This document shows, one piece after another, positions 3,290 to 58,072 of a stretch of 64,000 bases of DNA. The notes under the pieces were generated by a model. That model saw only the letters and a list, made by a program, of their open reading frames with translations. It was not told where the DNA came from and made no database searches. Made by a program: the position numbers and the translations under genes. Each line of letters opens with the position of its first letter. Within the stretch, counting starts at the first letter, position 1. The DNA is taken from the IMG/VR virus record IMGVR_UViG_3300034104_004920, positions 33,278 through 97,277 of that record; one strand, 5' to 3'. Origin of the DNA: a virus.

Positions 3290-4834
3290 ATGCCATACGT
3301 CAATTTTTTAAGTACAGACAATGATTGTGGAAATCCGGCTAGTAGTATAATGTATACCGAAGGATTTGGTGCAACACATATTACAGCCGGTTCTTTGTCA
3401 TTTCAGGGGACCACAGGAACATCTTCTGCGGGAAACTTTACAGTTTCCAGAGCCTATAAAAATATTTATAGATGGAGAGCTAGCTATTTATTAGTTGAAC
3501 TAGATTACTACTTTAAGTTTGGAGCAAGAGAATATAATAACTTTTTATTGTTAGGAAATGGTTACGTATTGTTTGGCGGTATTGAATTACTTACAAGTTT
3601 TGCCGATTATTTAGAACAAAATGCAGGCCAAAGTGACTACAGTGCTGAATCTTTTTCTAACACTGCTGGAACTGCTTATAACATTAAAAATAATGAGTAC
3701 GCATTATTTGCACCAACTTTGAGTAGTATTACCCTAAGTCAGTACGATAATTATGATTCTCCATATCCTTACTATGTAGAACTAGCTGAATATACAGGAG
3801 TAAAAAGAAAATTAAAATTACGTTGGATTGGACAAAACGGCGGCTATAATACTAATTTTCCAACCCCTTACCAGTATAATAATGCGCCTAACGATGGCGA
3901 ATATTCAAGTGATGCGAATTTAGTTGTAACGTATGAATTTTCCGAAAACGACGCAGTAAAATTAAGCCTAGATCAAAATGAATATGGTACCGCTAACAAT
4001 AGCAGTGTGTATTACCTAACAGGCAGACCGCTTGGATATTTTAACAATGATTTTACAGCTATAGAATCTGGTGAGATTTATAAAAATAAAAATAGTGGTG
4101 TACAAAATACTAGTTTCTTAGACAGTAGTGAATACACATATTCACAAAATTATAGCAGTGTACCCGCTAACAGAGTTTGGACTTTTAGTGGCACACCGAT
4201 TCAAGAATTACTAGAAACTATAGAGCATACAAAAGTAGAAGTTTATGGTTTTGGAAAGAATTCCGCTTGGTCAGAGCTTTCTGTAGGTGGGGCTGCTTAC
4301 AATATATTTCCATATGATAAAACCAACACAAAAAAATTTGCAACGGCACCCTTATCAGACTTAACAGAAAGAGAAGTAACGGGCAATTATATACTAGATA
4401 TAGATATGTCTAGTTATACTAGTAATAAACCTTTAGTTATATCTATTCCTGAATTACCCAACCTAGTTACCGGCCAAGGAAGTTCTAATATTAGATTTAA
4501 TTTTAAAAATCTAGATTTACCAAAGCATTCTGGTATTGTGGTAAAGTGTATTGTAAAATACAATGGCGGTAATTTAAGAGTCTACTTACCCTATATTAAT
4601 GGATATAATCCTTTAATACCCGATTCTTCAACCTATGATGGTATGACGAATCAATATAGTAGCGCTTATGTAAGCATATCTTCTTCGGTACTAAATTACA
4701 CTAGACTATTGGAGTTTTACATTGAAAATGTAGGTGGTATAGAGATAACAGACTACTATAACGTGTCGTATAAGTTTCCAGACGATAATAGTTACAAAGT
4801 AAGTTTTTTTGCTCCTGATTATGTAATTGTATAA
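3290..4834 (+). CDS. large virion/fibre-like structural protein
   Basis: 514 residues, no known motif, very rich in Tyr, Asn and Ser, as in phage beta-structured fibre or spike proteins. Residues about 60-80 (LLVELDYYFKFGAREYN) resemble the truncated protein at the left edge, so it may be a duplicate or diverged receptor-binding protein. An RBS (aagga) precedes the ATG. It follows the collagen-like gene by 12 bp and is probably co-expressed. Role inferred from position and composition. Confidence 0.65.
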   Translation: MPYVNFLSTDNDCGNPASSIMYTEGFGATHITAGSLSFQGTTGTSSAGNFTVSRAYKNIYRWRASYLLVELDYYFKFGAREYNNFLLLGNGYVLFGGIELLTSFADYLEQNAGQSDYSAESFSNTAGTAYNIKNNEYALFAPTLSSITLSQYDNYDSPYPYYVELAEYTGVKRKLKLRWIGQNGGYNTNFPTPYQYNNAPNDGEYSSDANLVVTYEFSENDAVKLSLDQNEYGTANNSSVYYLTGRPLGYFNNDFTAIESGEIYKNKNSGVQNTSFLDSSEYTYSQNYSSVPANRVWTFSGTPIQELLETIEHTKVEVYGFGKNSAWSELSVGGAAYNIFPYDKTNTKKFATAPLSDLTEREVTGNYILDIDMSSYTSNKPLVISIPELPNLVTGQGSSNIRFNFKNLDLPKHSGIVVKCIVKYNGGNLRVYLPYINGYNPLIPDSSTYDGMTNQYSSAYVSISSSVLNYTRLLEFYIENVGGIEITDYYNVSYKFPDDNSYKVSFFAPDYVIV

Positions 4835-4843
4835 GGTTTTATT

Positions 4844-5479
4844 ATGGAATTATACGCAAAACTAAATAATAGGCAAGAAGTTATTCAATTTCCAGTTTTA
4901 TTGCCTTATAAACTGGAAGCCGGACTTGCTAGGTATAATAATCTAGTATTAGTTAGTCAAGATGATAAACCAGAATACGTAGACTGGAAAAAACAATCTG
5001 TCCCAGTAGGTTTAAAAAAATCAATAGACTTTAAAAATCCAAAAAACTTTTTTAAAGCCGTTTATGAAGTAAAATCGGTTGTAGATAATACAACCGATTT
5101 TAAAACAAAACAAAATAAATTTTTAGAAGTTTACAATGAGTATAAAAATACAAACTACAAAGTATTTCAGCAAAAAGTAAAAGATCTAACAGGTGACTAT
5201 AAGCAGGAAGAGTTTGATACTTGGGACCAACAATTGGCTGAGGCAAAAGCCTATATAAGTACTAAAGAAGAAGGATTGCTATTAAAGAATATAAGCAATG
5301 AAAGAGGCATTTCATTACAAAATTTAGTAGATAAAATAATATCTAAATCTAATTCTTATAATTCTACTTATGGAAAATTATTGGGAAAATATAGAAAAAA
5401 CCAAGAAATACTAGACTCAATTGACTTAAAAAATGAAGCTACTTGGGACGGAGTAAACAACTATAATTGGAATTTATGA
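4844..5479 (+). CDS. tail-fibre associated protein with helical C-terminus
   Basis: 211 residues. The N-terminal half is featureless. The C-terminal half (about 110-195) is helical and reads EAKAYISTKEEGLLLKNISN, RGISLQNLVDKIISKSNSY, then YGKLLGKYRKNQ. This pattern (helix, RG-x-L-x-x-L-V-x-K-I-I, then small-x-L-x-G) is common at the C-terminus of phage tail-fibre assembly or tail accessory proteins. The stop overlaps the ATG of the glycosyltransferase gene. Family assignment is tentative. Confidence 0.5.
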   Translation: MELYAKLNNRQEVIQFPVLLPYKLEAGLARYNNLVLVSQDDKPEYVDWKKQSVPVGLKKSIDFKNPKNFFKAVYEVKSVVDNTTDFKTKQNKFLEVYNEYKNTNYKVFQQKVKDLTGDYKQEEFDTWDQQLAEAKAYISTKEEGLLLKNISNERGISLQNLVDKIISKSNSYNSTYGKLLGKYRKNQEILDSIDLKNEATWDGVNNYNWNL

Positions 5480-39950: not shown

Positions 39951-40037
39951 GGCATTTTATTAGGGTAGCAAGTGGTACGATAACCGTCGCAAGTGCTTAC
40001 TCGACGTACATCACATGAGCTACCCTAATAAAATGCC
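39951..40037 (-). ncRNA. inverted-repeat-closed RNA element next to tmRNA
   Basis: Perfect 19-bp inverted repeat (39951-39969 with 40019-40037) enclosing 49 nt with inner stems GTACG/CGTAC and CGTCG/CGACG. Its 5' arm overlaps the 3' hairpin of the tmRNA gene. Confidence 0.6.
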
Positions 40038-40065
40038 ACGTGATTTGATAACAAGGACACGTGGC
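40035..40065 (-). terminator. tmRNA 3' hairpin/terminator
   Basis: 8-bp stem GCCACGTG (40058-40065 with 40035-40042) followed on the minus strand by ATTTTATT. Confidence 0.7.
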
Positions 40066-40089
40066 GAAAACCCTGGCTCAGCTAGTTTT

Positions 40090-40122
40090 TCAGGCTGCTA
40101 GAGCAAATACCTCATCGTTGGC
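40090..40122 (-). CDS. tmRNA tag peptide ANDEVFALAA
   Basis: Ten codons and TGA inside the tmRNA coding piece. The end -ALAA is the usual ClpXP/ClpAP degradation signal; the start ANDE matches known proteobacterial tags. Confidence 0.92.
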   Translation of the reverse strand, partial: ANDEVFALAA

Positions 40123-40376
40123 ATTTATTTTTGTTTTGCTGTTTCGGCCAGGAAACTCCCAACCCTACGGCTTTCGCATTGCCGAGCTGTCCATTTCGTT
40201 ACTCATTGCCCCGTCGAAACCAGGTCAGGCCCATCAAAAGCATACTAAGCGCACACGCAAACTCCTACAACTTCCGTCATCTAAGCTTGAGGCCTTAAGG
40301 TGTTAAGTATGCTTTTGGTGGACCTGGGCGGAATCGAACCGCCGTCCGGAACACTTTTCTCTCTACTTCATACAGC

Positions 40377-40411
40377 CATATTTAATTTTTCAGATATACT
40401 CTGAAAAATTA
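40377..40411 (-). terminator. hairpin between protein gene and tmRNA acceptor piece
   Basis: AATTTTTCAGA pairs with TCTGAAAAATT across the stop of the gene at 40390. It lacks a T-run, so it may be a processing stem rather than a terminator. Confidence 0.45.
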
Positions 40412-40662
40412 ATCTTCATGCGTTCTGGAACGAACTCACGATAGTTATTTACCACGTCATATTCTTGGTAAATCTTCATTAGAGCAGCTTGAAACTCCTC
40501 CAGTGCTTTGTTGTACGCTGCGGCAAACTGTGCTTGTTCATCAGCCTCCAGTTCGCTAACATCAATGCAGGCCATTTTGTCAGTTGGATTGTTGAGCACA
40601 AGAGCTTCACGGTTAGAAACCTTGTTATTACGATCCACATATTCAAAGTCAATGAACTTCAA
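40390..40662 (-). CDS. hypothetical protein upstream of tmRNA
   Basis: 90 residues from a TTG start with ggag eight bases upstream, downstream of a consensus promoter. Alpha/beta: FIDFEYVDRNNKVSNREALV then acidic helix ELEADEQAQFAAAYNKALEE. Probably on the same transcript as the tmRNA. Function unknown. Confidence 0.65.
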   Translation of the reverse strand: MKFIDFEYVDRNNKVSNREALVLNNPTDKMACIDVSELEADEQAQFAAAYNKALEEFQAALMKIYQEYDVVNNYREFVPERMKINFSEYI

Positions 40663-48863: not shown

Positions 48864-48966
48864 TGGTAGGAGAGGTGGGAATCGAACCCACATTACTCCG
48901 CCTTATCTAGACGGTGCTCTACGAGTTTATAAGGCTCGCCCTTAGGCCAATATTAGCAACTCTCCC
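48864..48966 (-). tRNA. aberrant tRNA-Ile-like gene (GAT) with enlarged D arm
   Basis: 103 nt with canonical acceptor (GGGAGAG/CTCTCCT), T arm (GTGGG TTCGATT CCCAC) and encoded CCA. The anticodon stem CCGTC/GGCGG holds TAGATAA (A at position 33 instead of U). The segment between acceptor and anticodon arm is about 45 nt instead of 19, with a TAAGG/CCTTA hairpin. A normal tRNA-Ile lies 220 bp upstream, so this may be a decayed or repurposed copy. Confidence 0.65.
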
Positions 48967-57966: not shown

Positions 57967-57974
57967 CGACCCTT

Positions 57975-58072
57975 TGTAGGCAGGATTCGAACCTGCAAGT
58001 GGCTTCTACCACCACCGGCCCCAATGCGGGCCTATGTTTACCAGTTTCCATCACTACGGGTCCTCGGAGTCA
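57975..58072 (-). ncRNA. tRNA-like RNA, class II-like, non-canonical
   Basis: T arm GCAGG TTCGAAT CCTGC, variable-arm-like GTGG/CCAC, anticodon-like stem GGCC/GGCC, and an acceptor split as GACCC+GTAG against CTAC+AAA+GGGTC with a bulge. No CCA and no clear anticodon; may be a decayed tRNA-Leu or a mimic. Confidence 0.45.

Follow-up and report, generated by a model that had tools for sequence, protein, structure and literature searches.

The 64,000-nt stretch of viral DNA analysed here (the window; bases 33278-97277 of a 97,277-base IMG/VR virus record) contains a permuted two-piece tmRNA gene of the betaproteobacterial type, situated among the arrayed tRNA genes of a T5-like phage that looks lytic. 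We judge it very probable (roughly 0.85) that this gene is functional and that its product acts through host factors in trans-translation. The anatomy of the gene, its conservation in relatives, the covariation of its helices, the constraint on its tag and the finding of no phage SmpB support this reading directly; processing, charging, trans-translation and a benefit during infection are the parts of it that we infer.

Identity and anatomy of the gene

A sequence-only reading of this DNA had proposed a phage-encoded, permuted two-piece tmRNA with the tag ANDEVFALAA, and both the permuted mode of ARAGORN and two Rfam covariance models confirmed it. ARAGORN called a tmRNA* with that tag at 39999-40408; RF04321 (tmRNA_permuted) matched 40090-40377 with 131.5 bits (E 1.7e-25; curated cut-off 47 bits), and RF01850 (beta_tmRNA) matched 40016-40425 with 114.2 bits (curated cut-off 84 bits). 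The one-piece model RF00023 had no match in the window, and the acceptor half is placed before the coding piece. The interval first proposed for the gene, 40030-40383, identified the right locus but was slightly short, as the coding piece continues on its 3′ side to approximately 40016. The features are as follows.

39999..40425, minus strand: complete permuted two-piece tmRNA gene, betaproteobacterial type (ARAGORN, RF04321 and RF01850)
40316..40377, minus strand: acceptor piece (sequence, Rfam alignment and covariation)
40377-40372, minus strand: P2 strand of the acceptor piece, GGCUGU
40353-40347, minus strand: P2a strand of the acceptor piece
40343-40327, minus strand: T arm of the acceptor piece, GGCGG/CCGCC, with loop UUCGAUU
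40326-40320, minus strand: acceptor strand CAGGUCC, followed by A and then by the encoded CCA at 40318-40316
40233..40315, minus strand: intervening spacer of 83 nt with paired ends AAAGCAUACU/AGUAUGCUUU, presumably removed in maturation
40016..40232, minus strand: coding (mRNA-like) piece, which also contains UGGUUUCGAC (sequence, Rfam and covariation)
40232-40226, minus strand: 5′ start of the coding piece, GGGCCUG
40213-40207, minus strand: P2a partner in the coding piece
40190-40185, minus strand: P2 partner in the coding piece
40090..40122, minus strand: tag frame, ANDEVFALAA-stop (ARAGORN; third-position-biased divergence in viral tmRNAs)
40035..40065, minus strand: post-tag helix GCCACGUG/CACGUGGC with a beta-type loop, UCCUUGUUAUCAAAU (RF01850 alignment and covariation)

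The structural details of the original proposal also held. The CCA-bearing acceptor piece lies upstream of the coding piece on the minus strand, CAGGUCC and GGGCCUG form an acceptor stem with seven of seven pairs, G3:U70 among them, and the predicted 10-codon tag ending in ALAA-stop is present at 40122-40090, encoded as GCC AAC GAT GAG GTA TTT GCT CTA GCA GCC TGA. A tag-less tmRNA of the DS6A type was considered and ruled out, because the gene has this tag.

Two further structures lie close to the gene. A perfect 19-bp inverted repeat (39951-39969/40019-40037, with a 49-nt loop) overlaps the tmRNA 3′ region and reaches downstream of it; it was not seen in the more distant aligned relatives, and beyond it more hairpin-like sequence extends as far as the tRNA-Thr gene. 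A perfect 13-bp hairpin (TTAATTTTTCAGA) is located at 40382-40412, immediately 5′ of the acceptor piece, where the upstream ORF ends.

Phage context

ARAGORN called 23 tRNAs in the window, all on the minus strand and together serving 19 amino acids; none of these calls was named as a tRNA for His, and the first 33 kb of the record contain no tRNA genes. Two odd tRNA-like genes were seen at 48867-48966 and 57972-58060, one being a tRNA with a long variable arm that was found by Rfam only, the other having an anticodon that ARAGORN could not read.

By gene content and similarity, the phage is assigned to the T5-like group (Demerecviridae and relatives). Its DNA polymerase is 49% identical over 98% to those of T5-group phages, its TerL is 48% identical to those of Vibrio phages with genomes of 113-118 kb, and other T5-like genes in the record encode an SbcC/SbcD-like nuclease (D12/D13), a primase, a DnaB-type helicase, SSB and ribonucleotide reductase; genes for an NAD-dependent ligase and ThyX are also present. 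The nearest cultured T5-like phages share no more than about 48-50% identity with it in DNA polymerase and TerL. No close cultured relative or host emerged, the best matches of polymerase, SbcC and TerL all being below 50%; the ThyX gene near the tmRNA is closest to that of phage Melnitz, but at 56% this match is too weak to name a host. SmpB was not found in 27 phage records, the window's included, nor was a Phage_integrase domain found in the window's record, and with neither detected the tmRNA would need the SmpB of its host.

Conservation in relatives

Relatives gathered by their DNA polymerase comprised 80 viral loci, and 50 of the corresponding records were searched with RF04321. The first search gave matches above the cut-off in 23 of the 50. 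Two interrupted genes, described below, occupy the same place in the relatives G010 and G007; that of G010 scored above the cut-off in a permissive scan (72.3 bits), and that of G007 fell just under it (46.5 versus 47 bits). In 25 relatives and in the window, the tmRNA shares the strand of the polymerase gene and precedes it by 6.9-14.2 kb. Most relative records without a match stop short of the expected position. One of them, G041, has 20.8 kb available upstream of the polymerase and seems truly to lack the gene, and two others (G015 and G018) may also lack it. The subtype of 18 relative loci was beta_tmRNA in 16, alpha_tmRNA in one (L300) and assigned by the merged model only in one (L299).

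When the window's gene was aligned with those of 16 relatives (17 phage genes in all), 92.1% of cells formed standard pairs, compared with 40-49% when the alignment was slid. Two-sided changes occurred in 31 of 47 pairs versus 16.1 in shuffles, the covariation score was 0.405, compared with 0.152 for shuffles and no more than 0.099 after sliding, and compensatory changes were found in every helix. The G3:U70 pair was invariant (17/17). Post-tag helices 8 and 9 covary, with 70-80% of their cells paired. In several phage tmRNAs, L287 and L294 among them, the structured region that separates P2 from the tag is missing, which suggests that this part of the coding piece may be dispensable.

These patterns bear on whether the gene could be a passenger or pseudogene without function, taken from a host when, for instance, a prophage was excised imprecisely. 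In favour of such a capture, integration often takes place at tmRNA genes and the subtype is a bacterial (beta) one; however, the gene keeps a fixed position across divergent phages, every helix carries compensatory changes, the divergence of the tag is biased to third positions and the record has no detected integrase domain. We regard a passenger as very improbable.

The tag peptide

The 59 distinct ten-residue viral tags that we collected are invariant at A1, N2, A9 and A10, and ALAA is their dominant ending. Pairwise differences outside codons 4-6 numbered 1646, 614 and 6277 at codon positions 1, 2 and 3, respectively, and because they concentrate on third positions the tag is very probably read as protein. 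Base-pair covariation and this third-position-biased evolution of the tag together indicate a functional tmRNA gene.

Selection on the tag frame also weighs on the idea that the phage RNA is a decoy, occupying SmpB or AlaRS and thereby blocking trans-translation in the host. Phage tmRNA-like inhibitors do exist, an inhibitory tmRNA consisting of the tRNA-like domain only having been reported in mycobacteriophage DS6A (PMC4131195, PMC11915505), and the phage records examined here yielded no SmpB of their own. Nevertheless, these genes have kept their tag frame, its resume-codon context and the ALAA at its C terminus, with mostly synonymous divergence, and because the tag frame is under selection an inhibitory role appears decidedly improbable.

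The exact tag ANDEVFALAA looks phage-specific, because ANDEVFALA was found in a tmRNA-like context on 77 viral contigs, whereas a scan of 84,980 species genomes for ANDEVFALAA ending in TAA or TGA, the two stops covered, found it in one genome only, in a collection from which the host species is possibly missing. The sole occurrence is on a 6.7-kb contig of a Flavobacteriales metagenome-assembled genome (MAG), which has three permuted tmRNA matches above the cut-off, each on a separate contig; these are probably phage contigs binned with the MAG. The tag was carried by 25 of 132 distinct viral tmRNAs, a sample enriched for ANDEVFALAA by one tag-based search, and a count of 60 ANDEVFALAA calls among viral tmRNAs is inflated because that search had selected the tag.

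Such a distribution could reflect tag-swapping, in which the main effect of the tag is to make host adaptors and proteases treat rescued proteins differently, sparing or redirecting them. The frequency of ANDEVFALAA in the (enriched) viral sample against its single occurrence in species genomes fits this idea, as does the free variation at tag codons 4 and 5. Most phage tags, however, keep both the AND start and the ALAA end that is read by ClpX, which favours ordinary degradation, and we consider tag-swapping unlikely. The near-absence of ANDEVFALAA from bacteria makes phage-specific protein tagging during infection directly measurable.

The spacer and folding of the precursor

The acceptor piece and spacer fold as a single long arm (z -3.87), and 0 of 200 dinucleotide shuffles folded as well. 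The spacer had been described as 83 nt with self-pairing ends, and we found 10 consecutive bases paired, a result reached in 0 of 100 shuffles. Across 100 distinct permuted viral tmRNAs, spacer end pairing averaged 10.2 compared with 5.2 in shuffled spacers, so that a spacer hairpin is a general feature of these genes, and the spacer-end helices 5 and 6 covary among relatives. Such a precursor hairpin would fit a scheme in which RNase P cuts where the coding piece begins and tRNA 3′-end enzymes cut at the CCA. The maturation route described for two-piece tmRNAs relies on tRNA-processing enzymes for cleavage (PMC11915505).

Nuclease genes inside the spacer of relatives

Some relatives show that the spacer, a segment presumably lost during maturation, can house nuclease genes. 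The T5-like relative G010 (L303; IMGVR_UViG_3300007177_000075) has a 577-nt tmRNA spacer filled by an ORF for an HNH endonuclease of 181-183 residues (phrog_2255, E 1.1e-27), whose stop codon falls within the opening seven bases of the coding piece. Around this ORF, the acceptor stem GGGGUAG/CUACUCC including G3:U70, the terminal stem of the spacer and the tag ANDSEYRLAA are intact. Another T5-like relative, G007 (L302; IMGVR_UViG_3300021440_000035), has a 579-nt spacer with an HNH ORF, the protein being 49% identical to that of G010; here the HNH frame does not stop at the spacer but enters the coding piece of the tmRNA. The tag of this gene reads ANDSEFRLAA, and its T loop is degenerate.

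A different nuclease occupies the spacer in marine phages represented by three assemblies (L175, at 4449-5085, L134 and L188), in which the genes neighbouring the tmRNA are T4-like and the tag is ANDEVFALAA. Their 455-nt spacer is tightly filled by a 146-residue ORF of the SNase (staphylococcal nuclease-like) family (PF00565, E 2.6e-12; phrog_452, E 2e-34). Between L175 and L188 this ORF has seven synonymous and zero non-synonymous codon differences, and the compared flanking parts of the tmRNA are unchanged.

Among the roughly 133 distinct permuted tmRNAs from viruses that we examined, approximately three carry such an interruption. Rfam detected no intron in the nuclease-interrupted tmRNAs, and ARAGORN called none of them, a practical warning that interrupted tmRNAs escape this program. 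A search combining an HNH motif with the tmRNA D-loop pattern gave six viral matches, four of which had no tmRNA and were dismissed as chance. We found no published report of nuclease genes in a permuted tmRNA spacer, in a search that had most subscription journals outside its reach. The closest described arrangement is the group I intron-bearing tmRNA with genes for LAGLIDADG homing endonucleases (PMC11915505), which resembles those of G007 and G010 in having an endonuclease gene in a segment missing from the mature RNA (presumed for G007 and G010). In that case, however, a self-splicing intron interrupts the T loop of one-piece genes, whereas in G007 and G010 the nuclease gene is in the spacer of a permuted gene with no detected intron.

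On balance, we lean somewhat towards the view that the phage permuted tmRNA spacer is a recurrent home for nuclease genes. As processing of the tRNA type would discard it, the spacer would behave like an intron that needs no splicing, and possibly mobile genes could reside within an RNA gene that is otherwise intact. The spacer nucleases may be homing elements, and their presence in relatives suggests that mobile genes have found a safe harbour of a new kind.

Proposed function

We favour an active auxiliary tmRNA, in the transcript of which the spacer would form a hairpin beside the acceptor stem and then be removed by host RNase P and tRNA 3′-processing enzymes. The resulting acceptor and coding pieces would stay joined via the acceptor stem, P2a and P2, be charged by host AlaRS through G3:U70 and be loaded onto stalled ribosomes by host SmpB. 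ANDEVFALAA would then be added, and the tagged protein delivered to host proteases of the ClpXP type. It is plausible, as the sequence-only reading had suggested, that the phage tmRNA redirects ribosome rescue and proteolysis during infection.

T5-type phages destroy host DNA early. Together with the more than 20 phage tRNAs, the tmRNA would most likely sustain translation while host DNA and mRNA are destroyed. It would belong to a translation kit that the phage brings along, and would release ribosomes trapped on damaged mRNAs.

Comparison with known systems

The kind of tmRNA described here is not new, because phage permuted tmRNAs have already been published (PMC9004378, PMC11915505). A survey of 18,146 phage genomes yielded 133 unique phage tmRNA structures, of which 53 were two-piece, and Melnitz is among the reported cases (PMC9004378); the tmRNA database holds 79 phage tmRNAs of all forms (PMC11915505). 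Our own pattern scan of viral sequences for the permuted tmRNA signature matched at least 120 stretches. A plasmid search for bacterial two-piece tmRNAs found only 42-nt acceptor fragments, in Cupriavidus. The window's gene is a further phage two-piece tmRNA. The ribosome-rescue RNAs listed for phages are still few, and this gene extends them by a beta-type, syntenically conserved example from an uncultured T5-like clade.

With the tmRNAs of the Methylophilales phage Melnitz and pelagimyophage (PMC9004378), it shares a phage-encoded, permuted two-piece form found mostly in aquatic phages, and presumably the use of host factors. Melnitz, however, is a myophage that has a glutamine riboswitch and a tmRNA of alphaproteobacterial type, whereas the window belongs to a T5-like phage whose tmRNA is of beta type and lies within a large tRNA array; Rfam found no riboswitch in the window. 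The betaproteobacterial two-piece tmRNA (RF01850) has the same piece order, acceptor and P2 helices and AND tag start, and a similar post-tag helix with a UCCUUGUUA-CAAA-like loop. In contrast to RF01850, the window's spacer is longer (83 nt) and has a strong terminal stem, the terminal hairpin is different, and the tag was not found in sequenced bacteria, the one MAG contig excepted.

The Stenotrophomonas phage vB_SmaS-DLP_6 (KU682439.2) likewise has a beta-type permuted tmRNA within a phage tRNA array, but it is a 168-kb phage of a gammaproteobacterium and its tag is ANDDSFAPMAIAA. Its tmRNA (L002:2975-3318) is unannotated as such, and a hypothetical protein is annotated across part of it.
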